DNA of 64,000 nucleotides, taken from contig JAFSIZ010000050.1 in NCBI GenBank assembly GCA_017439555.1, forward strand, positions 1-64,000, in the 5' to 3' direction. A model generated the notes under the pieces. It ran no database searches. It saw only the letters and a list, made by a program, of their open reading frames with translations, and was not told the origin of the DNA. The stretch is from Oscillospiraceae bacterium (GTDB taxonomy: Bacteria > Bacillota > Clostridia > Oscillospirales > JAAYXM01). The position numbers and the translations under genes are program-made. Positions 30,001-56,375 of the stretch are shown here, piece after piece (position 1 is the first letter of the stretch; the number at the start of each line of letters is the position of its first letter).

Positions 30001-33000
30001 CAATCGAAAAGGTGGAACACGATCTTGAAGGCCGTAAGGTTGTTGTCGGAACAACGGAAAGCGTTTCCGCAAAGGTTCTTATGAGCGACGGAAGATACCA
30101 AGGTTTCGGCCTTGCGGATAATGGCTCTGCCGATGCAAAGAATACAATCACGGTGACATCGCTTGATGAAAGCATAGCTTCTGTCTCAAATGTCACATAT
30201 GCGGTTCCGGAAACCGAAAGTGATATTCTGATTGATCTGTCGGCAAACAAGGTAGGGCAGACGAGCCTTAAGGTTGCGGTCACGATAGACGGACTTGAAA
30301 CCTACACGGAAACCATCCCCGTTAAGATCCTCCCCGTTCCCGAAATCGAAAAAGTCGAGTTTGAGGCGGAAAAGGATGAACTTCCCGCAACAAGAACCTC
30401 CAAGACCTCGTATAAGCTCATAAGCAATATCGGCGAGGAATGGACAGAGGAGACGGAAATCACCTATGAAAGCGATGATACGGCTGTTGCGGAAGTATCT
30501 GCAGACGGCGTGATAACAGGTGTTTCGGAAGGTGTTGCTGTGATAACGATCAAGGCAACATCAAAAGGAAAGACTGTTACCGCTTCCGTTACGGTTGAAG
30601 TTTTGCCTGAACCCGTCCTTGAAACACTCGTTCTTTCGTCGGATAAGGTTGTCCTTCTTCCCGGAGATTCGGCACAGGTATCTGTTGAGGGTTCGATGAG
30701 CGATCAGATTGCGGCGGATATGAGCAAGTATACGATAAAGTATAAGAGCTCAAATCCTGCGGCTGCAACCGTTGATGAAGCTACAGGTGCGATTACGGCG
30801 CTTGCGGCAGGTATGACTGTTATCAGCGTTGAAGCAAAGAACGAAGATGATGTCAAGGTTGTCGGAAAGACCAATATCACGGTTTATGATTCATACCCCA
30901 GCTTCACGGTTGATATAACAGATGCAGAGTTTCAGGGCGGAACTTGTCCTGCACCTCTCAAGACAAACGGCTATAAGATTGTCTATGAAGAATCCGACAC
31001 AACCTACTGGAGACCCTGGAAACTTGAAGATACAGGTCTTATGGTTGCATATATCGGTGTCAACGGCGGTGCGTGGCCTGCAACTTCAAAGATTTCAAAC
31101 AATGCAATAACGCTTCTTGTTGACGTGCCTTATGAAAACGACTTCAACATAAAGCTTCACGGCGGAAAGTGGTACGCCGGCGGAGTATTCTCCGTGTTCA
31201 TTGATGATCAGTATCTCGGAGATTATAATTTCTATGATCCGGCAATCGAGCGTATGACAGATGCCGGTGAAAAATCCATGAATACTGTTCACCTCACTGC
31301 AGGAGAGCATAAAATCTCCTTCAGAACAAGAATCAAATACCGCTACAACTCCATGGTAACCCTCGGCACAATCAAGTTTGACCCCGTTGCGGCTTCAGGA
31401 ACAACATATAAGCAGATGTCTTATGAAATTCCGTCGGAAATTGCAATCGGCGAAAAGATTGAAGCAAGCGTGTTTGCTGAGATGACAGACGGAAGCGCTC
31501 TCCATTTCGGTATCAAAAACGACGGAAGCGCAGATACGGAGAATTCCGCAAGTGCTGTGTCTCTCAATTCCGATCTTCTTTCGGTTTCGGATTTCACAAG
31601 CTACACGATCGGTAAGACAGGAAAGCTTCCCTTCACATTGACGGGTGTCAAAGCAGGCGATGCTGAGATAAAGCTTGGCGTTAATGTCGGCGGCGTTCCT
31701 GCAGAAGAGATTGTCAAAGTTAAGGTTGTGAATGACCCGATAGCATCCGTTAAGGCAGGAACTGTTGCAGAGGAAGTCTTCCTCGGCGATATTGCAGTTC
31801 TCGAAGGCGAAGTAAAGCTTGCAAGCGGAAGAATTCTCGGAAAAGACAACACGAACATAACCTATAAATCTTCCGATGAAAGCGTCGCAACGGTTTCGGG
31901 AAATCTTCTCACAACCGTAGCACTCGGAAAAACAACAATTACCGCAACCGCTGTCTTCAACGGCGTTGAGAAGTCCTGCGACTTTATAGTCGAAGTTCTT
32001 CCCGAGGGTATGACGGATATCACCGTCACGAGCGGCGGAAGCCCGAGAATCCGTCTTACGGATGATGAAAGCGATAAATATCCGCTCTTTGTCAATGCTA
32101 CAACGAATCTCGGAAACGAGCTTGATCTTTCCGATGCCGAAATAACGGCAGTTGCCCTCACTCCAGAGATTGCGGAGATGAGCTGGGAATGCTATCCCGT
32201 TCTCAACGGAACGTTTGATAACTATATCCGTCCCGTAAGCGAGGGAACGGCAAAGTTTGAAGTCACCGTCAAGGTTGACGGAAGAATAAGAACAAAGGTT
32301 GTCGAGCTTCCGGTAGTCAAGGCAAAAACCGAAGCAAGCCTTATGACAGAAGAAAAGCGCGATATTGTAAGAGAGAATATTTCGAAATACAGCTGGGCAA
32401 AGTCATCGGCTCAGGCGTATATCGACAGAGCGGACAAATATGTTGCTCACCTTGATGAAATATATGCGCTCATCGCATCTCAGGAAGTTCCCAGAAGCTT
32501 TGCGGTAGGTGGGGAAGGCGACCCTGCAATGTATTACTGCCGCTATTGCGGAGAAAACCTCCAGCTTGAATACGGCGGCACGCCTTGGGTACACGATTCA
32601 ATCAACAAACCCTGGAAGATTCAGTGCCCTGATTGTAAGAACTATTTCCCGACAAATGACTTCGAAAGCTTTTATAAGCTCGGTCTCAACGAATACGGCG
32701 AATTTATCTATCAGGATGCTCTTGCAAGACACGCAGAGCTTTTCGGAAATCCCGAAGCAACACCGGGCTCGAGAGAGTTCTATGGCTATGGTAAGGGTTA
32801 TCTCAGAAATGAGCTCTACGGAAATCTTGAAAATGTCGAAACGCTCAACTGCGGACAGGGACTCCGCCCGGGTGAGAGCGCAGAGACGTGGGGCGTTGAT
32901 GACGGTTATGGTTATGTGCCCTATGACGAAAACGGAGAGCCGTATAAATCCGGAACGGTTGTAGAGCGCCACACCTATATTGCAGAATTTATGCACTATG

Positions 33001-36000
33001 GCGTATACGGCCAGCTCAAGGCAAACGACAACGGCTCGGTATATTATGAGGCAGTAAGAAACTGCTCCTATGCATATTTCTACACGGGAGACAAGAAATA
33101 CGGAAGAGTCGCGGCTGTTCTTATCGACAGACTTGCAGATTTTTATCCCGGATTTGATATCTCTGTGTTCGGAGACAATGTCTGGAACTCGGACGGCGGC
33201 TCGAACAAGGGAAAACGCCTCGGATGTATCTGGGAATGCAGTATCATCGACACCGATACAGTCGGCTATGATATGGTATTTGACCTCTATGACGATCCGC
33301 AGGTCATAAAGATGATTCAGGAAAAGAAGGCGCAATACGGAAGCCGCTATTCCAAACAGACCGGCGCACAGATTCGCCAGAACATCGAGGATAACCTCAT
33401 AAGAACAGTTCTTCAAGAAGTTCGCAACCGCAAGATTTTCGGCAACTTCGGTATGTCACAGAGCTCAACTGCAAATGCGGCAATTATTCTCGATTCCTTC
33501 CCCGAAACGGCAGAGTGGATAGACTATCTCCTCGCCCCGGGCTGGGTAAACGCAGTTCCCGTTATCGGCGGCGGTGTTGACGAAGTTCTCATCGAAAAGA
33601 TTTGTGCGGACGGACACAGTAACGAAGCCTCAGACTATGGTCTTCTCTGGATGAGCGGTATGCGCCAGGTCGCAGATGCTCTTTCCGAATATAAGAAATA
33701 TGAAGCGGCAAACCTCAATGCCCATCCGAAATATCAGCAGATGTATTATGCTCTCATTCCGCTCTATGCGGCAAAGAGCTATTCGCCGCAGATAGGTGAC
33801 GGCGGAAACACTGCCGACCTCTCGCATTGGCTCACCTACGGAACAGCGACAACTGCATATAAGATCACGGGAGACAAGGTGTTTGCTCAGCTTGCATATA
33901 TGCTCAACGGCAATTCCACACAGAACCTTCGTTATGGAATAACCGAGAAGGATCCTGAGCGTCTTGCAAAAGAAATTCAGGAAATTGTGGATAAGTACGG
34001 AACGGTTTCTCTTGATTCCGATATCCAGACAGGCTTCGGTTATGCAATTCTCCGCGACGGTCATTATTTTGACGGCACGGTTACAAACGAAACGGCATCC
34101 GAAACAACGAGAAACGTGTGGATGTATTTCGGAAGCAACGGCGGTCACGGCCATAAGGATTCCTTGAACCTCGGTATGACGGCATTCGGTCTCAACTTCC
34201 TGCCCGAGCTCGGATATCCGGAGAACACGGGAAGTGATCCGAACCGCGTACAGTGGGTAAACAACACGATTTCCCATAACACGGTTGTTGTCAATGAAAA
34301 GAGACAGGATGAGGAAGTCGAAGTTCGCGGCAAAGTCAAGCATTTTGACGATGCAGGTCAGGTTCAGGTTCTTGATGTTGAGAGAAATGAAGTATACCCG
34401 GATGCGGATATTTATCGCAGAAGCGTTGTTATGATAAATATCGACGACGCAAATTCCTATTATGTCGACTTGTTCCGTGTACTCGGCGGTGATAGCCATA
34501 TCTACAGCTTCCATGCACAGAGTAACGAAATTGCGGAAACTGCAGGTCTCGAGCTTATTCCGCAGGTAGATGAGAACGGAAACTATAAGGGAACATATGC
34601 GGGAATTGACAGTGAATACGGAAATGACCCGAAGACGAATCCGAATTCATGGAATTATGAGACTATGTACCCGATGGGCTATACGTGGCTTGAAAATGTA
34701 GACCGCGATGAAAATCCGGATGAGAAGTTTGAGATTGACTTCGCAATCAAGGATTTCACCAAAGCAATCAAGGATTCAAAGAATCTTCGTCTCAGAATGA
34801 CGATGCTCAACGGCGCAAACATCCGCGACGGCGCAACTTCAAATGTTGCAATAATGGACGGTTATGCTCCGCGTATGGCACAGAACAAGAATATCGATAA
34901 GCTCAAATATGTCCTTATTGAAAACGAAAATAAGGACGGAGCTCTTGACACGGTATTCACAACGGTTCTCGAACCGTATAAGGGAGAAAGAACGATCAAG
35001 TCAGTTGAAGAGCTTGAAACCGAGATTGCAAGCGGCAAGGAAAAGAAGAAAGATGCTTCCCGAGCAGTCAAGGTCACACTTGCAAGCGGCAGGGTTGACT
35101 ATATCTTCTATGCAACAAACAATGCAGTTACCTACAAGGTAACCGATGGCGAACTTGAGCTTTCCTTCCGCGGATTTGTCGGCGTATATTCCCTCAGCAA
35201 TGGAAATAACACATATAAATATGTCATCGACGGCGATATCATCGGTGAAGCTGTGGAGACAAAGGCTGCAATTGTCGGAACTGTCAGAAACTTCACAAAA
35301 GAGCTTTCTGCAGAAAATACGATAGAGATTTCAACGGAAGAAGCAGTAAGCGATGAAGAGCTCGCATCTCTTGCAAACCGCGTTGTTATCATCGACAATG
35401 AGTCGGGAATGCGCGACGGAGCATATAAGATTCTCTCCGCAGAGCGCAACGGCGAAAACATCGTTCTCAACACGGGCAGAGTATCGATGATAAGAAAGTA
35501 TGTCGATATGTACAAGCCGGAGCTTGGCTATGTATATACAATAGCTGCAGGTCAGGAAGTAACTATTCCGTTGTCGATGAGTGATGACCACGCACCTGTA
35601 TTCGATGCTGTTGCGGATAATCTTTCGACGAGTGCCGGAAGCGTTATAAGTGTAGACCTCAATGCGGTAAGTGATATCGAAGGTGTAGATGTAAGCTACA
35701 GTGAGGAAAGCTTGCCGAGAGGTGCAACTATAGACGAAAACACAGGTGTGCTCACATGGAAGCCGACAGCTTCGCAGGTTGGTAACAACCATATTGCAGT
35801 AAACGCAACCGATTCAGACGGCAGACGCAGCACAGTTCACTTCATAATTGCTGTCTATGGTTCAACAACAGGTGCAGGCTCACAGACACCGAGTGCACCT
35901 TCGACTCCGAGTGAGCCTTCAACCCCGTCAATACCCTCAACACCGAGCACTCCGGGTGGTTCCGGCGGTGCAGGCGGCGGTGGCGGCGGTGGAGCTGCTC

Positions 36001-36641
36001 CGGCTCCGTCAACACCGTCAGACGACAAGACGGATGTAGGGACCGATCTCCCGGGCGGTCCGTCAAATGACGACGGCACAACCTCAGGTGATGATGCAAA
36101 AGTGCGTTTTGTTGACCTTGGCGCTCACGCATGGGCGGCAGATGCAATCAATGCTCTTGCTGATGAAGGAATAATAAAGGGCACAAGCGAGAACACATTC
36201 TCACCTGCTGCAAACATCACGAGAGCTGACTTTGCGCTTCTCCTTGTCCGCGCTTTCAAATTGACAAGCGAGAATACAGAGAACTTCGCAGATGTAGCGG
36301 CTTCCGACTACTTTGCAGCTGAGCTTGCGATTGCAAGAAATACAGGTATTGTAAACGGCATTGGCGATAATAAGTTTGCGCCGAGAAATACAATCACACG
36401 TCAGGATATGATGACGATTGTATACAGAGCACTCACGGCACTTGAGGTTGAACTTGAGACGGGGGATGTTGTATATCCTGATTTTGAAGCTGTTGCAGAA
36501 TATGCAAAGGATTCAGTCAAGGCGCTCATTGCAAGCGGCCTTGTAAACGGAAAGAGCGGCAAGATTGCTCCGACTGATTACACAACACGCGCTGAAGTCG
36601 CAGTTCTCATAAAGAGAATTCTCGTCTATACACAGAGATAG
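27048..36641 (+). CDS. Giant SLH-anchored surface polysaccharide lyase (heparinase II/III family)
   Basis: The 3197-residue protein has a signal peptide (1-24), four beta-rich modules (about 30-305, 325-545, 548-810, 811-980; the last recurs at 1281-1450) and Big_2 Ig-like domains (about 1098-1188, 1188-1281, 1565-1650). The catalytic part (about 1760-2700) opens with a helical toroid that contains two Cys-pair knuckles (CRYCGENL, CPDCKNYFP). It continues with the heparinase II/III block GGHGHKDSLNLGMTAFG and NNTISHNTVVVNEKR, carrying the expected His and Asn residues. A cadherin/He_PIG-like domain (2832-2938), a Pro/Ser then Gly-rich linker and three SLH domains (3018-3197) follow. It should sit on the S-layer and cleave a uronic-acid polysaccharide by beta-elimination. 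AAAGGAGG precedes ATG. Substrate unknown. Confidence 0.88.
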   Translation: MKKRILSLLLAICMTVSLIPSISAEVVADDTRETLTYLINSDSFAVAYNDLRYVDAHIAYDDGWLATTPNMDTGMNFVTCISWKKQLTKKYDGSGIVTCDPYTVLDLNKTSPYQIENHIHNGPSVGMNMDNYALYATLKSSYYGKANPADRPYLAVRISVPAAGKYRIATWSKYSQIAGYGNTKYGSAMKVYFGKAPADPDSSVTNLKEYVSSNINANLGSYNFIGWHDTSNDGSATPGEYIAFEPKETDSDIIEVPSAGEYYIVFMADSDSLTRNPNKNSDSYQTQWFALSGIKLSPVKDKPEAPVVPEEPSYPEDEAAPTNTDDKYVFNAASHNYYALTNTFFAENGGYSSCITLADTNTKISSRWAVVNQASGSDNKLDINNYHWTVNVPDTATPDYNGTAGTVRTVVFELRTTKEGSFTPTLTFQTENSGAKYDVYLIEKPEIPWQANVYVPYGDAAIRNNVAALPASAKIGNFDAYGSGESKTVTFDKVSVKAKSNYYLIFNLNGANAKWKRDIHSTKSRYFATLKPQSFAFASSAQTPEPIVYEINPSSYNTEVQDKYFKLQASTASVQGDLIDNCELPYVTWRTKLSGVAPLVDLSKTEGYELLGRVSLDNSPAVNAKGYQTQIRIASDAAGNYYENPNYAAHPWTGVRINVPRGGRYKLSIKNAYTFDDPVVKGVVSLGTQKNGAVKGEFDKGAVAKVYFGNNLLSVTNTSSGTVNEEAKIGDLIAVSDVVGFYDVNKLATDENTPYITDVGYIDVPKAGEYYVLFDIDKDSIEKNPKCWYRSSADFQMFLLSGITLTPVAEDEVSNLRVDLTGTNHLITDSSKPSTWSTYGWELVPGKTADVVGRRLGGALPNKLVQIFLQLQNYGGLWKDSPASQATMFTFTKYFPKAGYYSIETLGYKVSIASDAAIYVNGEYVGDYNYYEADASYAIGERKALNTIYIPEGDVEISLRNRVKNHSYGLFYPMWMEFSPSEKPAIEKVEHDLEGRKVVVGTTESVSAKVLMSDGRYQGFGLADNGSADAKNTITVTSLDESIASVSNVTYAVPETESDILIDLSANKVGQTSLKVAVTIDGLETYTETIPVKILPVPEIEKVEFEAEKDELPATRTSKTSYKLISNIGEEWTEETEITYESDDTAVAEVSADGVITGVSEGVAVITIKATSKGKTVTASVTVEVLPEPVLETLVLSSDKVVLLPGDSAQVSVEGSMSDQIAADMSKYTIKYKSSNPAAATVDEATGAITALAAGMTVISVEAKNEDDVKVVGKTNITVYDSYPSFTVDITDAEFQGGTCPAPLKTNGYKIVYEESDTTYWRPWKLEDTGLMVAYIGVNGGAWPATSKISNNAITLLVDVPYENDFNIKLHGGKWYAGGVFSVFIDDQYLGDYNFYDPAIERMTDAGEKSMNTVHLTAGEHKISFRTRIKYRYNSMVTLGTIKFDPVAASGTTYKQMSYEIPSEIAIGEKIEASVFAEMTDGSALHFGIKNDGSADTENSASAVSLNSDLLSVSDFTSYTIGKTGKLPFTLTGVKAGDAEIKLGVNVGGVPAEEIVKVKVVNDPIASVKAGTVAEEVFLGDIAVLEGEVKLASGRILGKDNTNITYKSSDESVATVSGNLLTTVALGKTTITATAVFNGVEKSCDFIVEVLPEGMTDITVTSGGSPRIRLTDDESDKYPLFVNATTNLGNELDLSDAEITAVALTPEIAEMSWECYPVLNGTFDNYIRPVSEGTAKFEVTVKVDGRIRTKVVELPVVKAKTEASLMTEEKRDIVRENISKYSWAKSSAQAYIDRADKYVAHLDEIYALIASQEVPRSFAVGGEGDPAMYYCRYCGENLQLEYGGTPWVHDSINKPWKIQCPDCKNYFPTNDFESFYKLGLNEYGEFIYQDALARHAELFGNPEATPGSREFYGYGKGYLRNELYGNLENVETLNCGQGLRPGESAETWGVDDGYGYVPYDENGEPYKSGTVVERHTYIAEFMHYGVYGQLKANDNGSVYYEAVRNCSYAYFYTGDKKYGRVAAVLIDRLADFYPGFDISVFGDNVWNSDGGSNKGKRLGCIWECSIIDTDTVGYDMVFDLYDDPQVIKMIQEKKAQYGSRYSKQTGAQIRQNIEDNLIRTVLQEVRNRKIFGNFGMSQSSTANAAIILDSFPETAEWIDYLLAPGWVNAVPVIGGGVDEVLIEKICADGHSNEASDYGLLWMSGMRQVADALSEYKKYEAANLNAHPKYQQMYYALIPLYAAKSYSPQIGDGGNTADLSHWLTYGTATTAYKITGDKVFAQLAYMLNGNSTQNLRYGITEKDPERLAKEIQEIVDKYGTVSLDSDIQTGFGYAILRDGHYFDGTVTNETASETTRNVWMYFGSNGGHGHKDSLNLGMTAFGLNFLPELGYPENTGSDPNRVQWVNNTISHNTVVVNEKRQDEEVEVRGKVKHFDDAGQVQVLDVERNEVYPDADIYRRSVVMINIDDANSYYVDLFRVLGGDSHIYSFHAQSNEIAETAGLELIPQVDENGNYKGTYAGIDSEYGNDPKTNPNSWNYETMYPMGYTWLENVDRDENPDEKFEIDFAIKDFTKAIKDSKNLRLRMTMLNGANIRDGATSNVAIMDGYAPRMAQNKNIDKLKYVLIENENKDGALDTVFTTVLEPYKGERTIKSVEELETEIASGKEKKKDASRAVKVTLASGRVDYIFYATNNAVTYKVTDGELELSFRGFVGVYSLSNGNNTYKYVIDGDIIGEAVETKAAIVGTVRNFTKELSAENTIEISTEEAVSDEELASLANRVVIIDNESGMRDGAYKILSAERNGENIVLNTGRVSMIRKYVDMYKPELGYVYTIAAGQEVTIPLSMSDDHAPVFDAVADNLSTSAGSVISVDLNAVSDIEGVDVSYSEESLPRGATIDENTGVLTWKPTASQVGNNHIAVNATDSDGRRSTVHFIIAVYGSTTGAGSQTPSAPSTPSEPSTPSIPSTPSTPGGSGGAGGGGGGGAAPAPSTPSDDKTDVGTDLPGGPSNDDGTTSGDDAKVRFVDLGAHAWAADAINALADEGIIKGTSENTFSPAANITRADFALLLVRAFKLTSENTENFADVAASDYFAAELAIARNTGIVNGIGDNKFAPRNTITRQDMMTIVYRALTALEVELETGDVVYPDFEAVAEYAKDSVKALIASGLVNGKSGKIAPTDYTTRAEVAVLIKRILVYTQR

Positions 36642-36643: not shown

Positions 36644-36677
36644 AAAAACCGTTCGGGTTTTTCCCGAACGGTTTTTT
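36644..36677 (+). terminator. Terminator after the giant lyase gene
   Basis: A 14-bp stem (AAAAACCGTTCGGG and complement) with a 5-base T loop and six T residues begins 2 bases after the stop codon. It separates the surface-protein unit from the catabolic operon. Confidence 0.93.
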
Positions 36678-36747: not shown

Positions 36748-36776
36748 TTGACAAAAACGGCAAATAGCTATATAAT
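36748..36776 (+). promoter_or_regulatory. Consensus promoter of the nine-gene catabolic operon
   Basis: A perfect TTGACA and a perfect TATAAT are exactly 17 bases apart. The start codon is 130 bases downstream, leaving a leader with TTTCGATT-type motifs (near 36833) resembling half of the LacI operator at 57.4 kb. A promoter this strong implies tight repression when the substrate is absent. Confidence 0.8.
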
Positions 36777-36906: not shown

Positions 36907-38310
36907 ATGGCTTTTTATCTTGCGATAGACTTGGGCACAACGGGATGCCGAAGCATTTTATTTGATGATTCGCTGGAGATTGTGTCATCGTCATATGAAG
37001 AATATGGGCTGATAACGCTTCGCGAGGGCTGGGTTGAACAGGACGCTGAGCTTTGGTGGAGCCTGACTGTCAAGACCTCGAAGAAGGCGATATGCGATGC
37101 AAAGGTTTCACCTTCGGAAGTGAAGGGAATATCGATAAGCTCACAGGGCATAACGATAGTTCCGGTGGATAAGAATTTCAGTGCCATATACAATGCAATC
37201 AGCTGGCTTGATCTGCGCGCAGAAAAGGAGACACTGCAGATTGATTCCGATTTCGGAGAGACTGAAATCTTCGAGCACACAGGCAAGTCGGTAAATGCTG
37301 CATATACGCTGCCGAAGCTTTTGTGGATAAAGGAAAACCTTCCGGAAATCTGGAGCTCTGCAGAAAAGTTCCTTATGCCGATGGATTTTCTCCTTGCAAA
37401 GCTTACGGGTAAGTGTGTGACAGACCACAGTATGGCGTCAGGAACGCTTCTGTATGATATTGAAAAACGTTGCTGGAGCAAAAGGCTGCTTGACCATTAT
37501 GAGATTGACGAGAATAAGCTTCCGGAAATCAGATGGAGCGGCGAATGTGTCGGCAAGGTACTTCCTTCGGTTGCGCAGGAGCTTGGCGTCAGTGAGGATT
37601 GCGTTGTTGCGGTCGGTGCGCAGGATCAGAAGTGTGCGGCTCTCGGTGCAGGGCTTCGCAATGGCACGATGACGATTTCTCTCGGCACTGCGGCAGCTGT
37701 CACAAAGCTCTGGACTGAGGTCAATACCAAGGAAAACAAAAGTGTTGGCTGGTGCGGTTATACAGAACAGGGAACATGGGTCACGGAAGGCGTTGTCAGC
37801 ACAGCGGGAACCTGTCTTCGCTGGGTGCGCGATATGATGTTCCGCGGCGAGGAATACAGCGTTATAGATGATGAGGCAATGCAGGCAAAGCTGCGCGGAA
37901 GCTCGCTCCTTTTTTACCCATATCTCGGTGAGGATGCCTGCTTCTATGGCGCAAGCCTTGCGACGGAACGAGGTGATTTTGCTCTGGCGGTAATGCAGGG
38001 AGTAGCTTTTGAAATACGCAAGCTTCTTGAAAAGATGGAGGCAGATAAAGGGATAGACAGGCTTGTTATGTTCGGCGGCGGCGCAAAGGGCGATTTGTGG
38101 TGTCAGATGATTTCGGATATAACGCAAAAAGAGCTTGTTGTTCCGACGACGGCAGAAGCTGCAGGTGCAGGAGCTGCAATGCTTGCGGCACGCGCGGCCG
38201 GAAGTGAGCTGGCTCCGCTTGCGGCGGCAAAGAAATTCACGCCGCAGGAAAACTGCGATGAAAAGTATGAAAAATACATATCGTTAGAAAGAAAAATTTG
38301 GGAGAGATAA
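36907..38310 (+). CDS. FGGY-family carbohydrate kinase
   Basis: The 467-residue kinase starts with the phosphate-1 motif YLAIDLGTTGCRSILFD (residues 4-20). It has WVEQDAELWW, the substrate region QGITIVPVD and AISWLDLRAEKE, GAQDQKCAALGAG (about 239-251), and the ATP-binding GGGAKGDLWCQMISDI (about 381-396) with the catalytic Asp in the AQDQ block. Length and motifs resemble xylulose/ribulose-type kinases, but the sugar cannot be assigned. The ATG at 36907, preceded by GAGGGAAG, gives the conserved start; an upstream in-frame start would overlap the promoter. It is the first gene of the operon, probably phosphorylating the entering sugar or polyol. Confidence 0.9.
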   Translation: MAFYLAIDLGTTGCRSILFDDSLEIVSSSYEEYGLITLREGWVEQDAELWWSLTVKTSKKAICDAKVSPSEVKGISISSQGITIVPVDKNFSAIYNAISWLDLRAEKETLQIDSDFGETEIFEHTGKSVNAAYTLPKLLWIKENLPEIWSSAEKFLMPMDFLLAKLTGKCVTDHSMASGTLLYDIEKRCWSKRLLDHYEIDENKLPEIRWSGECVGKVLPSVAQELGVSEDCVVAVGAQDQKCAALGAGLRNGTMTISLGTAAAVTKLWTEVNTKENKSVGWCGYTEQGTWVTEGVVSTAGTCLRWVRDMMFRGEEYSVIDDEAMQAKLRGSSLLFYPYLGEDACFYGASLATERGDFALAVMQGVAFEIRKLLEKMEADKGIDRLVMFGGGAKGDLWCQMISDITQKELVVPTTAEAAGAGAAMLAARAAGSELAPLAAAKKFTPQENCDEKYEKYISLERKIWER

Positions 38311-38312
38311 AA

Positions 38313-39599
38313 GTGGTATCTTCACAGAATATATATAAAGACATCTATCATCTTACAGAAACGATAGGTACAAGAATTGCAGGAACGAAGCAGGAACGCG
38401 AGGCTGCTGAATACCTGCAGAAGCGCTTCCTTGAATATGCTCCGTCGTGTGTGATTGAAGAATTTCAGACGATGGTGCGCGATGTCAAGGATGAAAAGCT
38501 TGAGGTGTATGTTGGCGGCGAATGGAAGAGGATCAACGCAAAGCTTTTCAATATGTCAACGACAACAGAAGGCAAAGATGTTGAAGCAGAGATTGTTTTC
38601 TTTGATGGACACACAGACTATCAGAGGGCAGATATTTCCCACATAACAGGCAAGGCTGTTGTCCATTTCGGTTTCATACCGAACGAAGAGGCGTTTTGCC
38701 GCCTTCTTGAAGCAAAGCCCGCTTTTATGATGATGGTTGACACGCGATATACAAGCGAACTTCCGATAGCAAACAGCTTCTTGCCGGCATATGTCGAAAA
38801 ACACGGCGCGGTAACTGCTGTTGATGTCGCGTTCTATGATGCTTGGGCTTTCCTCAAGGCAGGGGCAACAAGGGCGAGACTCAATGTTTCCGGCGGTACA
38901 TATAAAGGCGTTTCGCAGAATGTCATTGCTGAGATTCCGGGCACAGACCCGGATGCTCCATGCATTTATGCAGGCGGACATATAGATTCCGTGGCAGGAA
39001 GCTCGGGCGCAGATGATAACGCTGTCGGCTGTGCGATAATCGTTGAGCTTGCGCGGCTTCTGTCTCAGAAGCCACATAGGCATACAATCAGGCTTATAGC
39101 ATATGGCTCTGAGGAGCAGCTTTCGGTCGGAAGTGCGATGTATGTAAAACGCCATCGTGAGGAGATTGAGAAAAAAGGTGCATTTATGTGCAACTTTGAT
39201 TCCTGTTCATCTGCTATCGGCTGGAACCGTTTTGTCATAAATGCAAACGCAGCGCTTCGCGAGAAGATGAAAAGTGTATATAACGGCGAGGACATATATT
39301 ATGTCGAGTTCACACAGCCCGATCCGTGTAACGATCTGTTTCCGTTCACGGTGTGCGGCGTGCCGGGTGTAACGCTTATGCGCAACAACTGTGAAGTCGG
39401 AAAGTTCTATCATCATCGCCCTGATAACAACCTTGAAAATATTTCGTGCGATATTGCGGCAAAGCTTGCAAAAGCCTCGGCGAAGCTCATTGAAGAGCTC
39501 GCGGACGGCGACGATACAAGAGAATTATATACAGTGGATAAGGCTATGTGCGCTGCTGTTGACAGCCTTTGGCTGGAAAACTACGGCGGCTGGGAATAA
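38313..39599 (+). CDS. Cytosolic M28-family zinc aminopeptidase-like hydrolase
   Basis: The 428-residue protein has the two-zinc site of peptidase family M28. His223 and Asp225 lie in GGHIDSVAG, Asp234-Asp235 in GADDNAVG, the Glu pair in YGSEEQLSVG, Asp in CNFDSCSS, and the final His in FYHHRPDNN. A PA-type insert domain (about 95-190) is visible. There is no signal peptide, unusual for the family. The GTG at 38313 was chosen: GGAGAG lies 6 bases ahead, and it follows the kinase stop by 2 bases. In this sugar operon it more likely cleaves an amide of an amino sugar or peptide-linked sugar than bulk protein. Confidence 0.85.
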   Translation: MVSSQNIYKDIYHLTETIGTRIAGTKQEREAAEYLQKRFLEYAPSCVIEEFQTMVRDVKDEKLEVYVGGEWKRINAKLFNMSTTTEGKDVEAEIVFFDGHTDYQRADISHITGKAVVHFGFIPNEEAFCRLLEAKPAFMMMVDTRYTSELPIANSFLPAYVEKHGAVTAVDVAFYDAWAFLKAGATRARLNVSGGTYKGVSQNVIAEIPGTDPDAPCIYAGGHIDSVAGSSGADDNAVGCAIIVELARLLSQKPHRHTIRLIAYGSEEQLSVGSAMYVKRHREEIEKKGAFMCNFDSCSSAIGWNRFVINANAALREKMKSVYNGEDIYYVEFTQPDPCNDLFPFTVCGVPGVTLMRNNCEVGKFYHHRPDNNLENISCDIAAKLAKASAKLIEELADGDDTRELYTVDKAMCAAVDSLWLENYGGWE

Positions 39600-39624
39600 A
39601 AATTATTAAGAGAGGAAGATGAAT

Positions 39625-40959
39625 ATGTTAAGAGCAGGTATGGCCCGTGCGGATATCACACCGCCGAAGGGGCTTGAGCTTGCGGGATACCCTCATTATC
39701 CGAGATATAATGAAGGTGCCCACGATCCGCTTATGGCGGCTTGTATGTATATTGAAAACGAAGATGCAAAAATTGCGATGGTAACCCTCGATTTGCTTTT
39801 CTTCTCCAAAAAGCATACGACTGAGGTGCGTCGCCGCGTAGAGGCAGAGTGCGGCATCCCGGGAAAGAATGTTATGATCAGCTGTTCACACACCCATTCA
39901 GGTCCGTGGGCTTCGGGAAGGCTTGATATCGAAAGCCTTGAAGCAGGAAAAGAGCAGCCGAAGGAATATGTCGAAGATCTCATTTCAAAGATAGTCTCGA
40001 TTATAAAGGAAGCAAAAGAGGGTGCTTTCCCGGCATCGTTCGGTGCAGGAGTTGCTCTCTGTGGCGCTGAATCAGGTGTCGGTGGCAACCGCCGCATTCC
40101 GGGTGGCCCCCATGATCCGCTCGTCAGCGTTATGGCTGTCAAGGATGCAGAGGATAAGATCCGCGGTATTTTTGTCAACTATACGCTTCATCCGACATTC
40201 ATTCACGAATGGAGCAACGTCTGCACAGCAGATTATCCTTGCTATCTCAGAATGCAGCTTGAAGAGCTTGAACCGGGCGTTATCGTCGGATTTGCACAGG
40301 GCGCATCGGGCAATCAGTCCTCGCGCTACTATCGCCAGGGCGAGAGCTATGATGAGGCAGAGCGCGTAGGCCGCATTCTCGGCCGTGCCGCTCATTCCGT
40401 TCTTGCGAAGATGGAATGGACAAACGATATGCCGATAGCTGTCGCAAATTCTGAGCTTCCGTTTGAGCTTCGCGATTTCGGAACAGAAGAGGAGCTTATG
40501 GAAAAGGTTGCTCATGATGAAGCAGTCTATAAAGAGCTCTATGCAAAATACGGTGACTCAACAAACCGTGAGGAATATTATCTCTGGCAGAATGCAAACC
40601 TCAAGCTTCTCGGCTCTGAGGATCAGCTCGGCTATATCAGAATGCAGAAAAAGGGCATCAAGATCGAGCTTCTGGATGATGAAGGCCCGATGGAGATCCA
40701 GATTATAAAGCTTGGCGGAACTTGCGTTGTCGGTATTCAGGGAGAGGCATTTGTCGAATTTGCGCTCTATGTAAAGGCGATGGCAGGATTTGGTATGGTC
40801 GTGTTCAACGAGCTTACAAACGGCGTTCTTCCGGGCTATCTCTACACACCGGAATCTCTTGTAACAGGCGGATATGAAACAGATACATCAATGCTTGGCG
40901 AAAACTTCGGTAAGCATATGGTGGAAAAAGTTCTTGAAACTATTGAAGAGGTGAAGTAA
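39625..40959 (+). CDS. Cytosolic neutral-ceramidase-fold hydrolase, paralogue 1
   Basis: This 444-residue protein is the N-terminal catalytic domain of neutral ceramidase (PF04734) alone, without a signal peptide. It starts AGMARADITPPKG. The expected metal and catalytic positions are kept: His89 and His91 in SCSHTHSGP, His189 in YTLHPTF, Ser228 in GASGNQSSRYY, Glu374 in QGEAFVEF and Tyr417 in TGGYETD. Known family members cut the amide of ceramide outside the cell; a cytosolic copy in a sugar operon probably acts on another N-acyl or ester compound. The ATG at 39625 is preferred over 39619 because of ribosome-site spacing and alignment with its paralogues. It is coupled to the NagA-like gene by a 1-base gap. 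Confidence 0.85.
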   Translation: MLRAGMARADITPPKGLELAGYPHYPRYNEGAHDPLMAACMYIENEDAKIAMVTLDLLFFSKKHTTEVRRRVEAECGIPGKNVMISCSHTHSGPWASGRLDIESLEAGKEQPKEYVEDLISKIVSIIKEAKEGAFPASFGAGVALCGAESGVGGNRRIPGGPHDPLVSVMAVKDAEDKIRGIFVNYTLHPTFIHEWSNVCTADYPCYLRMQLEELEPGVIVGFAQGASGNQSSRYYRQGESYDEAERVGRILGRAAHSVLAKMEWTNDMPIAVANSELPFELRDFGTEEELMEKVAHDEAVYKELYAKYGDSTNREEYYLWQNANLKLLGSEDQLGYIRMQKKGIKIELLDDEGPMEIQIIKLGGTCVVGIQGEAFVEFALYVKAMAGFGMVVFNELTNGVLPGYLYTPESLVTGGYETDTSMLGENFGKHMVEKVLETIEEVK

Positions 40960-40960
40960 T

Positions 40961-42109
40961 ATGGTATGTATTAAAAATGCTAAGGTAGTGCTTGAAGGCG
41001 GAATCATATGGGACGGTGTTGTTCTCGTTGACGGCGACAGAATTGTTGCAGCAGGCGAGGCAGGCGCGGTTGAAATCCCTGCAGGAGCAGAGATTGTTGA
41101 TGCAAACGGCGCATATGTAGGCCCCGGCTTTGTTGATATCCATGTCCACGGCGGAAACGGATATTCCTTCAATAAGGATCCTTATGAAGCGGCAGAGCAT
41201 TTTCTCGCACACGGCGAAACCACAATTCTCGGAACATTCTATTTCGATCTCGGAAGAGACGAATACATAGCTGCAGCAGAGCGCGTGCGTGAAGCGATGA
41301 ATCGCGGCGGCGCAGGTGATGCTCTTGCAGGTATCTATATGGAAGGCCCGTATATGAACCCGAAATACGGATCAAACCCCCAGGGTAACAAGTGGAAGGG
41401 CGACATCTGTGCGGAAGACTATGAAGCGATAGTAGACAGCTTTGGCGATATCGTCCGTATGTGGGCTATTGCGCCTGAGCGTGAAGGCCTCGTTCCCTTT
41501 ATGCAATATGTAAAGAAAGTGAATCCTGAAGCAGGCTTCGCTTTCGGTCACTGTGAAGCAAACGCTGAGGAAATCAGAAAAGTCAAGAAATACGGCCTCA
41601 TAACACAGACACATTGTATGGATGCAACAAACAGCGTCTCAAAATGGTTTGGCGTCCGCGGCAACGGCCCTGATGAGACTTGTCTTGCTGATCCGGAAAT
41701 TTATGCAGAGCTTATTTCCGATTCACTTGGTGTTCACGTCAATTCCGATAACCAGCGCCTTATCCTAAAGGCTAAAGGTGTTGACCGCGTTGTCCTCATT
41801 TCCGACAGCGTTGTCAGTGATGAAAAGGCGCCGGACGATCTTGCACACGTTAAGGACCTCGTTTTCGATTCAAACGGCTGGCTTGGCGGAAGCAAGCTCA
41901 CAATGGATGCTGCCTGCCGCAACATTATGCATCATACAAACTGCGGTATCGCACAGGCGTTCCTGATGGCATCTCGCAATCCTGCAAAGGTTCTCGGAAT
42001 GTATGATGAGATCGGCTCGATCGAAGAAGGCAAGCGCGCAAACCTTGTTTTCGTTGACGATATGTTCAATGTCAAAAAGGTTATGCTGAACGGAAAGTTC
42101 GTCGGATAA
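40961..42109 (+). CDS. NagA-like N-acetylglucosamine-6-phosphate deacetylase family amidohydrolase
   Basis: The 382-residue amidohydrolase has the NagA metal and substrate residues in order: His61 and His63 in VDIHVHGG, Glu128 in MEGPY, His in FGHCEANA, His in TQTHCMDATN, and the catalytic Asp in LISDSVVS. GGSKLTMD and the C-terminal IGSIEEGKRANLVFVD complete the family pattern. Canonical NagA removes acetate from GlcNAc-6-phosphate. All catalytic positions appear intact, though the substrate may be a different acylated amino-sugar phosphate. It lies between two ceramidase-fold genes, 1 base after the first and 12 bases before the second. Confidence 0.85.
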   Translation: MVCIKNAKVVLEGGIIWDGVVLVDGDRIVAAGEAGAVEIPAGAEIVDANGAYVGPGFVDIHVHGGNGYSFNKDPYEAAEHFLAHGETTILGTFYFDLGRDEYIAAAERVREAMNRGGAGDALAGIYMEGPYMNPKYGSNPQGNKWKGDICAEDYEAIVDSFGDIVRMWAIAPEREGLVPFMQYVKKVNPEAGFAFGHCEANAEEIRKVKKYGLITQTHCMDATNSVSKWFGVRGNGPDETCLADPEIYAELISDSLGVHVNSDNQRLILKAKGVDRVVLISDSVVSDEKAPDDLAHVKDLVFDSNGWLGGSKLTMDAACRNIMHHTNCGIAQAFLMASRNPAKVLGMYDEIGSIEEGKRANLVFVDDMFNVKKVMLNGKFVG

Positions 42110-42121
42110 CGGAGGTAAGCG

Positions 42122-43459
42122 ATGTTAAAGGCTGGAATGTCGAAAAGAGATATCACACCGCCTCTCGGCATCGGGCTTACGGGGTATCCCCATTATCCGA
42201 GACCGAACACAGGCGCACATGACCCGCTTTGGGCGGCTTGTATGTATGTGAGCGACGGCAATTGCGAAGCTGCGCTTGTAACGCTTGATATTCTCTATTA
42301 TTCAAAAAAACACGTTGCTGAAATCCGCAGGAGAGTAGAGGAAGAGTGTGGTATTCCCGGAAGAAATATAATGATAAGCTGTTCACACACTCATTCCGCA
42401 CCTCTTTGCTATACGCCGTTCACTATGGACGACCTCGAGGGCGGAGATTCCGGTCAGCCGAGGGAATATGTACAATTTACAATCAAAGCAATTACTGAGG
42501 CGATTGAAGAGGCGAAAGCAAATGCGTTTCCGGCAAAGTTTGGCGCAGATGTTGCGATGTGCGGCGCTGAATCAGGTGTCGGAGGAAACAGGCGCATACC
42601 GGGAGGCCCCCACGATCCTCTTGTCAGTGTAATGGCTGTTAAAGATATGGATGACAAAATCCGCGGTGTATATGTCAACTATTCGTTGCACCCGACTTTT
42701 ATCCACGAATGGAGCACGCTTTGCACTGCTGACTATCCGTATTATACACGCCTTGAGATCGAAGAAAATGAAGGTAATCCTGTTGTTTGCTTTGCTCAGG
42801 GCGCATCGGGCAACCAATCGAGCCGCTACTACAGAAACGGTGAAAGCTATGACGAAGCTGAACGTGTCGGAAGAGCGATAGGTAAGGCGGCAAGACTTGC
42901 GCTCTCGAAAATGGATTGGAAATCAGAGCTCTCGATTGATGTGGTAAGCGAAGATATTCCGTTCGAAATCCGTGATTTCGGAACCATTGAAGAGCTTGAA
43001 GAAAAGTGCGCCCGTGATACAGCGGTCTACGAAGAGCTTTATGCAAAATACGGCAATTCGACAAACCGCGATGAATATTATCTCTGGCAGAACGCAAATC
43101 TCAAACATCTCGGCTCAGAAAATCAGCTTGCCTTTGTCAAGTTCATTTCCAAAGGCGGAAAGGTTCCTGCGTTTGAGGAAGAAGCACCTGCTGAGATTCA
43201 GATCATCAGAATCGGCGATGCTTGCATTGTCGGTGCACAGGGCGAGATATTCATTGAGTATGCGCTGTATATAAAGGCAATGGCAGGATTTAAGACAGTT
43301 GTATTCAATGAGCTTGCAAACGGTATCCTTGCAGGTTACCTTTACACACCGGAATCGCTTGTAACCGGAGGTTATGAAACAGACACCTCAATGATGGCGG
43401 CAAGCTTCGGTAAATCCATGGTAGATAAAGCCTTAGAGCTTATAGAAAAAGTAAAATAA
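42122..43459 (+). CDS. Cytosolic neutral-ceramidase-fold hydrolase, paralogue 2
   Basis: The 445-residue protein is closely related to paralogue 1 along its whole length, with shared blocks such as GAESGVGGNRRIPGGPHDP, LHPTFIHEWS and QGASGNQSSRYYR. The His-Thr-His (SCSHTHSAP), serine and GGYETDTSM sites are conserved. A notable difference is the loop after the first metal site (LCYTPFTMDDLEGGDSGQPR), close to the likely substrate cleft, so the two copies may have different acyl or sugar specificities. GGAGG lies 7-8 bases ahead of the ATG. There is no signal peptide. Confidence 0.85.
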   Translation: MLKAGMSKRDITPPLGIGLTGYPHYPRPNTGAHDPLWAACMYVSDGNCEAALVTLDILYYSKKHVAEIRRRVEEECGIPGRNIMISCSHTHSAPLCYTPFTMDDLEGGDSGQPREYVQFTIKAITEAIEEAKANAFPAKFGADVAMCGAESGVGGNRRIPGGPHDPLVSVMAVKDMDDKIRGVYVNYSLHPTFIHEWSTLCTADYPYYTRLEIEENEGNPVVCFAQGASGNQSSRYYRNGESYDEAERVGRAIGKAARLALSKMDWKSELSIDVVSEDIPFEIRDFGTIEELEEKCARDTAVYEELYAKYGNSTNRDEYYLWQNANLKHLGSENQLAFVKFISKGGKVPAFEEEAPAEIQIIRIGDACIVGAQGEIFIEYALYIKAMAGFKTVVFNELANGILAGYLYTPESLVTGGYETDTSMMAASFGKSMVDKALELIEKVK

Positions 43460-43477
43460 AGAAAGAGGGAAAATGTA

Positions 43478-44428
43478 ATGAGCTTCAAAGAAACTTTCAG
43501 TCACGATTTTTACCCATTCAAGGATCAGGCGGAAATTGACCGTGTGCGCAAGATAACCTATGAGGATATCATTGCTATGGGAGGCAAGCATCCGACAGCG
43601 AAGAGCGCAAGCGTAAACGTTGTCCGCGGAGATATGGTTGAGACAATCATGATTTCCGATATGGTCAGCAGAATTGTCGCATCAGACCGCGAGGATAAGC
43701 TTTGCGTTATGATTATGTGCAATCCCTGCCCGACATATGCAAAGGTTGCATATATGCTCCAGGAAATGAAGGTAAACTGCCGCAACGTAAAGTTCTATAT
43801 GATGGACGAGTGGGCAGACGAGGATGGAAACATCGCTCCGCTTTCCTATAAGGCAGGCTTCGGCTATGCATTCAACAAGTTTATGATTTCAAACCTTGCA
43901 GGTCTTGGTTTCCGTGAAGAGAACTTCATCTATCACAGCAACAAGACAACACCTGACTTCTCAAAGATGCTTGAGCAGGACGGCGAGGCAGATATCGTAT
44001 ATTCAGGTCCGGGCTGGCCGGGACATCTCGCATTCATCGACCCGGTTGAAGATTGGTATAAGCCGACGATGGAAGAATATCTCGAGCAGGGCGCAAAGGT
44101 TGCAACACTCCATCCGCTCACAATCGCACAGAATTCTCTCCATGGTGGATTCGGTCTCTCCGGCGATATTTCAAAGGTACCGCCGAAGGGCGCAATGATG
44201 GGTCCGCGCGATGCTATGAAGGCAAAGAATGTTCTCGACATCCATTCGATAACAACAGCCGGCTCACAGGTTTCCTGGCAGCGCCTCACATCACGTCTCT
44301 GCGTATTCGGAAAGCCTGCACAGGAAGTTCCGGCATCCATTCTCCAGCTTCGTGACAAGCCGACACGCATCATCTTCAGCGAAGTCGCAGCTGCCACAAT
44401 AAAGGATGAGGAAATCTTCCAGTATTAA
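43478..44428 (+). CDS. NagB/RpiA-fold protein resembling glucosamine-6-phosphate deaminase, altered active site
   Basis: The 316-residue protein is longer than NagB (about 266). It keeps the general base Asp110 in MMDEW (Asp72 of E. coli NagB) and His183 in GPGWPGHLAF (His143). At the positions of NagB Asp141 and Glu148 it has Pro181 and Asp188. The region SLHGGFGLSGDISKVPPKGA replaces the usual allosteric/phosphate loop. It therefore probably does isomerase or lactonase-type chemistry, or deaminates a different amino-sugar phosphate. It is placed after NagA-like and ceramidase-fold genes, 18 bases from the latter, with AAAGAGGGA as ribosome site. Confidence 0.75.
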   Translation: MSFKETFSHDFYPFKDQAEIDRVRKITYEDIIAMGGKHPTAKSASVNVVRGDMVETIMISDMVSRIVASDREDKLCVMIMCNPCPTYAKVAYMLQEMKVNCRNVKFYMMDEWADEDGNIAPLSYKAGFGYAFNKFMISNLAGLGFREENFIYHSNKTTPDFSKMLEQDGEADIVYSGPGWPGHLAFIDPVEDWYKPTMEEYLEQGAKVATLHPLTIAQNSLHGGFGLSGDISKVPPKGAMMGPRDAMKAKNVLDIHSITTAGSQVSWQRLTSRLCVFGKPAQEVPASILQLRDKPTRIIFSEVAAATIKDEEIFQY

Positions 44429-44447
44429 TTCGGAGGTTCTGACGGCA

Positions 44448-45053
44448 ATGATAAAGAATGAAGCGATAGAAGCCGCTCTTGCAGCATATGACATAGAGGC
44501 GGAATGTATCCGCGACATGAAGTCGTATGTTGACGTTGAGCAGTTTAAAAAAGCAGTTGAGCTTCTTTGCAATGCACCGAGAATCGGTGCAGCCGGAAGC
44601 GGACATTCAGGCATTATATGTCAGCATTTCGCACATCTTATGTGCTGCATCGAGCGCCCTGCGAGATTCATATCTCCGGCAGAGGCAGTCCACGGTGCGA
44701 CAGGATTTTTGCAGAAGGGCGATGTGATGGTATTTGCATCGCGCGGCGGCAAGACAAAAGAGCTTTTGCCGATAGTTGATATCTGCAAGGCAAAGGGTGT
44801 GTCGATAATAACCGTAACGGAGAATATGGAATCTCCGCTTGCAGAGGCGGCTGACGTTGTCATCAAGCAATATGTCAACCGCGAAACCGACAAGTGGAAC
44901 GCTCAGGGAACAACGAGCACAACAGCACTTTGTATGATTTTCCATGCATTGCAGGCTGCTATGATTGAGCAGACCGGTTATCAGGCAGAGCAGTTTGCTC
45001 TTATCCATCCGGGCGGAGCTGTCGGCGAGCGCCTGAACAATAAAGCGTTATAA
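44448..45053 (+). CDS. SIS-domain sugar-phosphate isomerase (GutQ/hexuloisomerase-like)
   Basis: The 201-residue protein is a single SIS domain. It has the phosphosugar site GAAGSGHSGI (about residues 50-59), the second serine block VFASRGGKTKELLPI (about 95-109), ITVTENMESPLAEAADVVI, and the C-terminal HPGGAVGERL typical of KdsD/GutQ and 6-phospho-3-hexuloisomerase. It should interconvert aldose and ketose phosphates. No CBS domains follow, as in the short forms. The ATG at 44448 is chosen over one 42 bases upstream, which would overlap the preceding gene; GGAGG lies 11 bases ahead. Confidence 0.85.
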   Translation: MIKNEAIEAALAAYDIEAECIRDMKSYVDVEQFKKAVELLCNAPRIGAAGSGHSGIICQHFAHLMCCIERPARFISPAEAVHGATGFLQKGDVMVFASRGGKTKELLPIVDICKAKGVSIITVTENMESPLAEAADVVIKQYVNRETDKWNAQGTTSTTALCMIFHALQAAMIEQTGYQAEQFALIHPGGAVGERLNNKAL

Positions 45054-45083
45054 TTAAAAATCCAGAAAGTGAGTGAATGAAAA

Positions 45084-45782
45084 ATGGCAAATTGCAAGAT
45101 TAAAGCTCCGTTTTTCGAAATCGGACCGAAGTCCTATCTCTTCGGTGACGAAATTCTTGAGCTTGCCCTTGCGGCGGATAAGGCATCAGAGAAATATGAT
45201 GTTGACATCATTTTCACCTGCCCTGTAGTTGATATCCGCAGAGTAGCGGAGGCAACAAAGCGCATCCATGTATTTGCACCGCATATGGACCCGATCGTTC
45301 CGGGCCGCGGACTTGCAGACATTCTTCCTGAATCTCTTGTTGCGGCAGGTGCAGAGGGCGTTATGCTCAATCACGTTGAAAAGCCGCTCGAGTTTGAGGT
45401 TCTTGCCGATACAATAAAGCGTGCAGACGAAGTCGGTCTTACAACGATTGTATGTGCAGATTCAATGGCCGATGCATCGAAGATTGCAGAGCTTCATCCC
45501 GATATCATCGTTGCAGAGCCGTCTGAGCTTATCGGCACAGGCGTCAGCGTAGGTCCTGAGTATGTCGCTGCAGCAACGGAATCTGTCAAGAAGGTTGATG
45601 AAAACATCCTCGTTCTCACAGCTGCAGGCATCGCAGGCGGAGAGGATGTATACAACACAATGATCGCCGGTGCTGATGCAACGGGATCTTCGTCAGGCGT
45701 GGCCAAGGCAGCAGACCGCCCGGCAATGGTCGATGAAATGATCGCCGCTTGCCGCAAGGCCTGGGACGAAAAACATTCTTAA
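45084..45782 (+). CDS. Archaeal-type triose-phosphate-isomerase-like TIM barrel
   Basis: The 232-residue protein matches the short archaeal form of triose-phosphate isomerase rather than the bacterial TpiA. It has an N-terminal lysine region (CKIKAPFFEIG), His97 in LNHVEKPL (the archaeal INHSE(R/K) motif), Glu145 in VAEPSELIGTG, and the phosphate loop GADATGSSSGVAKAAD near 200-215. All three catalytic residues appear present. A cell with glycolysis should have TpiA elsewhere, so this copy probably isomerises a pathway-specific aldose/ketose phosphate such as a tetrulose or related compound. It is 30 bases after the SIS gene. Confidence 0.8.
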   Translation: MANCKIKAPFFEIGPKSYLFGDEILELALAADKASEKYDVDIIFTCPVVDIRRVAEATKRIHVFAPHMDPIVPGRGLADILPESLVAAGAEGVMLNHVEKPLEFEVLADTIKRADEVGLTTIVCADSMADASKIAELHPDIIVAEPSELIGTGVSVGPEYVAAATESVKKVDENILVLTAAGIAGGEDVYNTMIAGADATGSSSGVAKAADRPAMVDEMIAACRKAWDEKHS

Positions 45783-45817
45783 GTCAATATTTTTTAAAAT
45801 ATAAGGAGGAAACAAAA

Positions 45818-46438
45818 ATGGAATTCAAAGTTTATCAGAAAGAGTTAGAGCTCCAGTCAAGAGGCTGGATCCCGACTTTCCACGATGTCTCCAAGGAGAT
45901 CATGGAAATCGTTAAGGCATCAGGTGTCAAGAACGGCACAGTATGCATCGCATCTCACCACACAACCTGCTCGGTTATGATTCAGGAATGCTCACACGAC
46001 CTCGATTCTTTCGACCTCGAGTATCTCCAGCATGACCTTCTCGACATCATGCGCAAGCTCATCCCGGATTATACAAACGAGGGTGACTACCGCCATCCGG
46101 GTCCGCTCCACGCACAGTTCGGCCGCTATGTAAACGAGCCTGGTAACTACACATCAATGAACACAGACGGTCATCTTCGCTCCGTATTCTTCGGCAGAAG
46201 CGAGACAATGACAATCAAAGACGGTGTTCTTGATGGCGGTGAGTTCGCTCACATCTATTTCATCGACTGGGATCACGTTCGTGCACGCCGTCGCCAGCTT
46301 AATGTAACCGTTATGGGTACAACTGACGAGGTTGAAGATCGCAAGTGGAACGGCGGCGAGGTTATCGACACTCTCCGCAAGTTCACACCTGACGAAAAGG
46401 CATATGACGAGCGCTACGACCTCCAGCTCAAGAGATAA
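45818..46438 (+). CDS. UPF0047/YjbQ family protein, extended form
   Basis: The 206-residue protein belongs to the YjbQ family but is about 65 residues longer than usual. Family features are ITASHHTTC-like IASHHTTCSVMIQE (about residues 45-58), the acidic DLLDIMRKLIP, the histidine-rich YRHPGPLHAQFGRY (about 90-103), and RSVFFGRSETMTIKDG with FIDWDHVRARRR. The extra length lies in an insert around 95-115 and a 35-residue tail. E. coli YjbQ was reported to have weak thiamine-phosphate-synthase activity, and its true role is unsettled. It is last in the operon, with AGGAGG 8 bases ahead of ATG. I would expect a sugar-phosphate role here. Confidence 0.82.
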   Translation: MEFKVYQKELELQSRGWIPTFHDVSKEIMEIVKASGVKNGTVCIASHHTTCSVMIQECSHDLDSFDLEYLQHDLLDIMRKLIPDYTNEGDYRHPGPLHAQFGRYVNEPGNYTSMNTDGHLRSVFFGRSETMTIKDGVLDGGEFAHIYFIDWDHVRARRRQLNVTVMGTTDEVEDRKWNGGEVIDTLRKFTPDEKAYDERYDLQLKR

Positions 46439-46452: not shown

Positions 46453-46485
46453 AAAACAGCTTCCTGAAAAGGAAGCTGTTTTCCT
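46453..46485 (+). terminator. Terminator of the nine-gene operon
   Basis: A perfect 12-bp stem (AAAACAGCTTCC and complement, 6-base loop) lies 15 bases after the UPF0047 stop. Confidence 0.88.
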
Positions 46486-54226: not shown

Positions 54227-54248
54227 GATTCACCTAAGACATAGCGAA

Positions 54249-54290
54249 AAAACTGACCTCGGATTTTCGGGGTCAGTTTTGCTTTTTGTC
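54249..54290 (+). terminator. Terminator after the aconitase-family gene
   Basis: AAAACTGACC and GGTCAGTTTT form a 10-bp stem around a 12-base loop that itself pairs (CGGATTTTCGG), followed by GCTTTTTG. Confidence 0.82.
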
Positions 54291-54344
54291 GGCTTTTGAT
54301 ACAGATAAGTCATTGGAATATCAGGCGATTTTCCGGAAAGAGCA

Positions 54345-54373
54345 TTGCTATAAAACTTTCTCCGTGATATAAT
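54345..54373 (+). promoter_or_regulatory. Promoter of the DUF4838 gene
   Basis: TTGCTA and a perfect TATAAT are separated by 17 bases, 33 bases ahead of the start codon. Confidence 0.7.
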
Positions 54374-54406
54374 TATCTCGAAATCAAAACAAGGAGAACT
54401 TTCAAG

Positions 54407-56284: not shown

Positions 56285-56342
56285 AAACGTATTTCGCAAC
56301 CAAACACAAGGCGACAACTCTGCTTTGTTGGCATAAAACAAT

Positions 56343-56375
56343 AAAAACGCTGAACTTTTCGTTCAGCGTTTTTTT
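56343..56375. terminator. Bidirectional terminator between the DUF4838 gene and the LacI gene
   Basis: A perfect 13-bp stem (AAAAACGCTGAAC and complement, 5-base loop) and seven T residues. The LacI stop codon is inside the right arm. A near-identical copy lies at 60194-60227. Confidence 0.92.

Follow-up and report, generated by a model that had tools for sequence, protein, structure and literature searches.

In the classical catabolism of N-acetylglucosamine (GlcNAc), phosphate is added first, by the kinase NagK or by a phosphotransferase system (PTS), and NagA and NagB complete the set. Within a 64,000-nucleotide window (the whole stretch of DNA analysed: positions 1 to 64,000 of contig JAFSIZ010000050.1, assembly GCA_017439555.1, Oscillospiraceae bacterium) we examined a run of nine genes that shares with this pathway, in one operon and for successive steps, a NagA-type deacetylase and a NagB-type deaminase fold. 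It departs from the classical scheme in that an FGGY kinase replaces the ROK kinase or PTS, the NagB-like protein has no phosphate pocket (which rules out the classical GlcNAc-6-phosphate pathway itself), and ceramidase-fold amidases and a module of SIS, triosephosphate isomerase (TPI) and UPF0047 proteins are added. Tetritol and erythritol pathways combine an FGGY or other kinase with a TPI-like isomerase and RpiB; the locus shares with them the kinase, a TPI-like protein and an aldose-ketose isomerase, but holds no polyol dehydrogenase, has a SIS protein for RpiB and an archaeal-type TPI, and includes a UPF0047 protein. The sulfoquinovose transaldolase pathway (SftI/SftT) is echoed by sister clusters of the second module, which have, by family matches only, an SftI-like isomerase (scoring below the curated SftI cut-off) and an FSA-type aldolase; the operon itself has neither gene, and its kinase, TPI, SIS and UPF0047 proteins are extra. 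A marine bacterium that degrades chitin handles oxidised chitin by the ong pathway, in which cytosolic deacetylation is followed by deamination and then by phosphorylation, with a D-aminoacylase-type deacetylase, a pyridoxal-phosphate-type deaminase and KdgK acting on an amino-sugar acid (PMC9537276). The route that we propose below is similar to the ong pathway in step logic and different in enzyme families, and it adds the phosphate later than the classical Nag pathway does.

The nine-gene run is real and conserved, and it is apparently undescribed. The first-pass annotation of the window already knew of no described pathway with this set, and in the papers searched (most subscription journals lie outside their coverage) our queries on the gene set, YjbQ, related pathways and the deamination of unphosphorylated amino sugars turned up no description of it; the operon is best filed as a variant of Nag-type amino-sugar catabolism. 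We consider it on balance probable that these genes form a two-module operon for the breakdown of an N-acylated amino sugar, in which deacylation and deamination precede phosphorylation. A free N-acyl amino sugar would be taken up by an importer and stripped of its acyl groups in the cytosol by the NagA-like and/or ceramidase-fold zinc amidases, after which the NagB-like enzyme would convert the free amino sugar into a ketose and ammonia. The ketose would be phosphorylated by the FGGY kinase, and rearrangement of the ketose phosphate towards central metabolism would fall to three proteins: SIS, the short TPI homologue and the long form of UPF0047. What the substrate is, in which order the steps run and what UPF0047 catalyses, we infer from gene content, conservation, folds and residue patterns.

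The source genome is a draft Clostridia bin (2.68 Mb, 200 contigs, 84% complete). Family searches recovered all nine co-directional reading frames in the families first named for them, with gaps of -13, 19, 1, 12, 18, -23, 30 and 35 bases between successive genes (Table 1). For the UPF0047 gene the family was upheld and the upstream TTG start at 45749 was not, since the ATG at 45818 gives the length kept by homologues. The consensus promoter and the terminator that had been placed on either side of the run were both recovered; TTGACA-17-TATAAT, of the sigma-70 type, sits ~130 bases 5' of the first gene, just past the hairpin of the upstream gene. Taken as whole sets, sites resembling promoters or terminators are no commoner than in shuffled sequences, and the operon's own promoter and hairpins are the best-scoring sites of the region.

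Table 1. Genes and putative transcription signals of the nine-gene run (positions are those of the window).
Feature	Position	Strand	Basis
Terminator-like hairpin, 14 pairs, closing the upstream gene	36644..36676	+	Sequence scan
Promoter TTGACA-17-TATAAT, 12/12 consensus match	36748..36776	+	Sequence scan
FGGY sugar kinase, XylB-like, core	36907..38310	+	Family match, conservation in core loci
M28 zinc hydrolase, non-core, present here only	38298..39599	+	Family match; absent from related loci
Single-domain ceramidase-fold (PF04734) amidase A, core family	39619..40959	+	Family match, zinc-site alignment
NagA-like N-deacetylase, core	40961..42109	+	Family match, residue alignment
Ceramidase-fold (PF04734) amidase B, core family	42122..43459	+	Family match, alignment, predicted fold
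NagB-like protein without phosphate pocket, core	43478..44428	+	NCBIfam, solved-structure match, predicted fold, residues
KpsF-like SIS sugar-phosphate isomerase, lower module	44406..45053	+	Family and structure match
Archaeal-type triosephosphate isomerase homologue, lower module	45084..45782	+	Family match, alignment
Long UPF0047/YjbQ protein, 206 aa, lower module	45818..46438	+	Family match, homologue length
Terminator-like hairpin, 13 pairs, 3' of the operon	46453..46482	+	Sequence scan

The NagB-like protein carries most of the argument. Its first assignment stood as regards fold and weak matches and fell as regards Pfam, where no match was obtained: it scored 38.6 bits with the curated glucosamine-6-phosphate (GlcN6P) deaminase model of NCBIfam (cut-off 247), and the best fold matches of its predicted model (mean pLDDT, the predicted local distance difference test, 83) were GlcN6P deaminases (E ~1e-13; template modelling scores of 0.65 by query and 0.78 by target), with lactonases well behind (E 6e-8). 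In an alignment of 44 family proteins (43 independent) to Escherichia coli NagB, the catalytic D72, E73 and H143 are retained in 44/44, and the phosphate pocket is gone in the same 44 (no GGT loop, R172 replaced by Leu and K208 by Gln). The functions ascribed here and below to individual residues of neutral ceramidase, NagA, NagB and XylB are common background knowledge, and the alignments are tool results. Deaminase chemistry may persist in this family, and in our reading of the aligned residues the usual way of holding a 6-phosphate should be impossible for its members. We favour the phosphate-last order because this pocket is missing and because aldose isomerases swap with NagB-like proteins beside the same type of kinase. 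On the same two grounds, isomerisation of an already phosphorylated product, as originally suggested for the locus, is doubtful. N-deacylation, deamination or isomerisation, and sugar phosphorylation are supported.

A scan with the NagB-like protein of one genome per species (84,980 species) yielded 31 loci, nearly all of them in Clostridia from ruminant and other animal guts. In the 28 core loci (NagB-like identity 65-81%; several cut by contig ends), PF04734 proteins accompany the NagB-like gene in 26/28, NagA-like proteins in 23/28 and FGGY kinases in 22/28, usually in the order kinase, NagA-like, ceramidase-fold, NagB-like and -16 to +132 bases apart; in four loci the NagA-like and ceramidase-fold genes stand ~0.8 kb apart with a DeoR regulator gene inside the gap. 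Ceramidase-fold and NagB-like genes are doubled in L056 and L074, and the NagB-like gene in L075, and the congruence of core-protein distances is moderate only (Spearman 0.24-0.75). More distant NagB-like loci (~37-46% identity) have a NagA-like neighbour in 15/19, a count that omits L181 as a repeat of L060. This joint recurrence in other Clostridia, by which the idea of a single conserved pathway had from the start been meant to be judged, bears that idea out, and conservation together with co-occurrence rules out chance neighbours. The M28 gene, in contrast, was found in 0/28 core loci and in no other related locus, and the hydrolytic or peptide-removing step once assigned to it is therefore rejected.

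The neighbours of NagB-like genes elsewhere include further zinc hydrolases (M20, PIG-L and creatininase), and because such unrelated enzymes recur there alongside NagA and PF04734, we favour deacylation with phosphorylation last. Uptake of a free sugar would fit as well, since in L069, L072 and L077 the core is preceded by a ribose-type ATP-binding cassette (ABC) importer; none adjoins the operon here. A family of ~311 residues with conserved Cys and His, for which we found no Pfam or NCBIfam match, is encoded near the core in L059 (6687-7622) and nine other loci. In L079-L081, second NagB-like copies stand beside a DHDPS-family aldolase and an oligopeptide-type ABC importer, which replace the kinase and amidases. 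Within the same genus and family, a related gene set (L039, at C186 of the source genome, and L045, L046, L047 and L049) unites a distant NagB-like protein (27-30%) with a GFO/IDH oxidoreductase and, varying by locus, a PIG-L deacetylase, PF04734, a PfkB kinase and ROK.

In the NagA-like protein, the metal ligands E131, H195 and H216 and the catalytic D273 are retained in 21/21 sequences, the substrate residue H143 is mostly Pro, and the curated score is 171.4 bits (cut-off 225.65). The kinase is nearest to XylB, with the FGGY fold and catalytic Asp present, a curated XylB score of 343 bits (cut-off 380) and an altered xylulose contact (Met77-His78, QMHG to QGIT). The ceramidase-fold proteins retain the zinc ligands H97, H204, E411 and Y448 of neutral ceramidase and the equivalents of its active-site R160 and Y460, and in fold searches with the predicted model (mean pLDDT 88) neutral ceramidases came far ahead of other matches. 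The PF04734 match and the retained zinc site could point to the degradation of sphingolipids or ceramides, a scarcely credible function that we rule out on score, length and partners: the proteins have a single domain (445 aa as against a model of 636 positions), reach 17-20 bits where the curated neutral ceramidase cut-off is 1200, and sit among sugar enzymes. The 2.7 Mb genome encodes ten PF04734 proteins (0/14 well-known control genomes encode any), four of them within the window (the operon pair and those at 16817-18181, on the reverse strand, and 57415-58815).

The lower module is linked to the core mainly through shared genomes. SIS, TPI and long UPF0047 genes adjoin the core in only 6/28 loci, and long UPF0047 proteins (at least 75% identity) are present in 23/26 core-bearing genomes, usually next to a TPI homologue. 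In a class sample of 391 genomes, drawn evenly and unselected, 33 have the long UPF0047 protein, 20 the NagB-like protein and 16 both, so that the former accompanies the latter in 16/20 (Fisher p = 4.5e-16, not corrected for phylogeny). Direct contacts between the modules occur in L196, where FSA, NagB-like and NagA-like genes adjoin TPI and SIS, and in L182, where an AraA-like isomerase, a kinase, TPI and a short UPF0047 are followed by DeoR, a kinase, a creatininase, and NagB-like, NagA-like and ceramidase-fold genes. Among 20 long-UPF0047 loci of other Clostridia, FGGY kinases are present in 14/20, AraA- or SftI-like aldose isomerases in 12/20, FSA-type aldolases in 7/20 and DeoR regulators in 7/20; in L128 the slot of the aldose isomerase is taken by a NagB-like protein (38%) together with an M20 hydrolase. 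A conserved TPI-SIS-UPF0047 cluster recurs in many Clostridia (L117-L136), accompanied by an FGGY kinase, an AraA/SftI-like isomerase and an FSA-type aldolase; it frequently includes a further UPF0047 of shorter length and may be another undescribed sugar pathway.

As for its proteins, the TPI homologue exceeds the archaeal-type curated cut-off (183 bits versus 132) and retains the catalytic Lys, His and Glu in an alignment to 1hg3, but has lost the active-site Asn of the Asn-x-Lys motif (NFK to GPK); it is an extra copy, the genome having a separate canonical TPI (C116). The SIS protein scores 118.6 bits with the curated KpsF/GutQ model (cut-off 203.7), its nearest solved relative being 3fxa, a SIS protein of unstated function. 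The UPF0047 protein matches its Pfam family (86.6 bits, cut-off 27), falls slightly below the curated YjbQ cut-off (65.6 versus 67.75 bits), and is longer than either model (206 aa versus 117-132 positions). Its solved relatives are all structures of unknown function, and it too is an extra copy beside an ordinary UPF0047 encoded in a 142-aa frame.

Several points weigh against an N-acyl amino sugar route with phosphorylation last. Within the ring-opening triad of NagB, D141 is mostly Pro in the core NagB-like proteins (Ala, Thr, Ser or Pro in distant ones) and E148 is nearly always Asp throughout the family, and because both are altered, deamination is not certain. The changed triad, the lactonases and isomerases that the NagB superfamily also holds, and the non-deacetylases included in the creatininase and amidohydrolase families would suit a pathway without any amino sugar, in which the NagB-like protein would be an isomerase or lactonase, and the NagA-like and ceramidase-fold proteins other hydrolases, for an acylated, branched or lactone-forming sugar. 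We judge this distinctly improbable in view of the retained DE motif and His, the lead of GlcN6P deaminase folds over lactonases, and the recurrence beside NagB-like proteins of fold-unrelated hydrolase families that include amidases. Furthermore, the phosphate contacts R227 and H251 of NagA are perhaps retained, which would suit a phosphorylated substrate, and because of this the NagA-like protein leaves the step order undecided. Were phosphate added first, the FGGY kinase would act on the N-acyl amino sugar (not at O6), the NagA-like and ceramidase-fold proteins would deacylate and the NagB-like protein would deaminate, as in the classical Nag logic (which starts with phosphorylation) at another phosphate position; the frequent gene order, with the kinase leading, agrees with this. 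FGGY kinases act, however, on ketoses, polyols and aldonates, and we know of none that acts on N-acyl aldoses; moreover, all three phosphate contacts are missing from every NagB-like protein aligned, and in sister clusters the NagB-like slot beside FGGY kinases is taken by AraA-like isomerases, the known examples of which use free aldoses, so that we regard this order as rather unlikely.

The lower module, in addition, lies elsewhere in the genome in most relatives and also occurs without the core, as would be expected if the two modules shared a transcript here and served different compounds. Their strong co-occurrence even where unlinked, and their independent adjacency in L182, L196 and L128, render this very improbable, with the reservation that the co-occurrence tests ignore phylogeny. 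Transcription of the nine genes as one run is read from sequence only, and the substrate and activities of the pathway proteins are likewise inferred. Hints from neighbouring genes disagree between loci and yielded no choice of sugar (sialidase-like BNR and DUF386 in L059, GH20-like in L128, GH10-like in L060, the DHDPS family in L060 and L079-L081).

More tentatively, the phosphate-last route might be widespread among gut Clostridia as a second way of breaking down amino sugars. Loss of the acyl group and of the nitrogen would turn the free sugar into a ketose ahead of any phosphorylation; the ceramidase-fold protein would deacylate the sugar in the cytosol, and the long UPF0047 protein would be a sugar-phosphate isomerase or epimerase of a new kind, belonging to a lower module that other sugar pathways also use. 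If true, single-domain PF04734 and UPF0047, two widespread families without a clear catabolic role, would gain one, the NagB fold would prove able to work on amino sugars that bear no phosphate, and what ordinary annotation would label GlcNAc use or ceramide breakdown would be a separate nutrient route, common among Clostridia of the ruminant gut. These predictions are concrete enough to be tried on a handful of purified proteins.

The gene of a 3197-aa surface protein (27048-36641, forward strand, with its own hairpin) stops shortly before the operon; the protein has three S-layer homology (SLH) repeats, immunoglobulin-like domains and a heparinase II/III-like domain. Further downstream, 54230-61227 forms a catabolic-looking patch with a DUF4838 protein, a LacI regulator, a PF04734 protein and a xylose-isomerase-like TIM-barrel protein.

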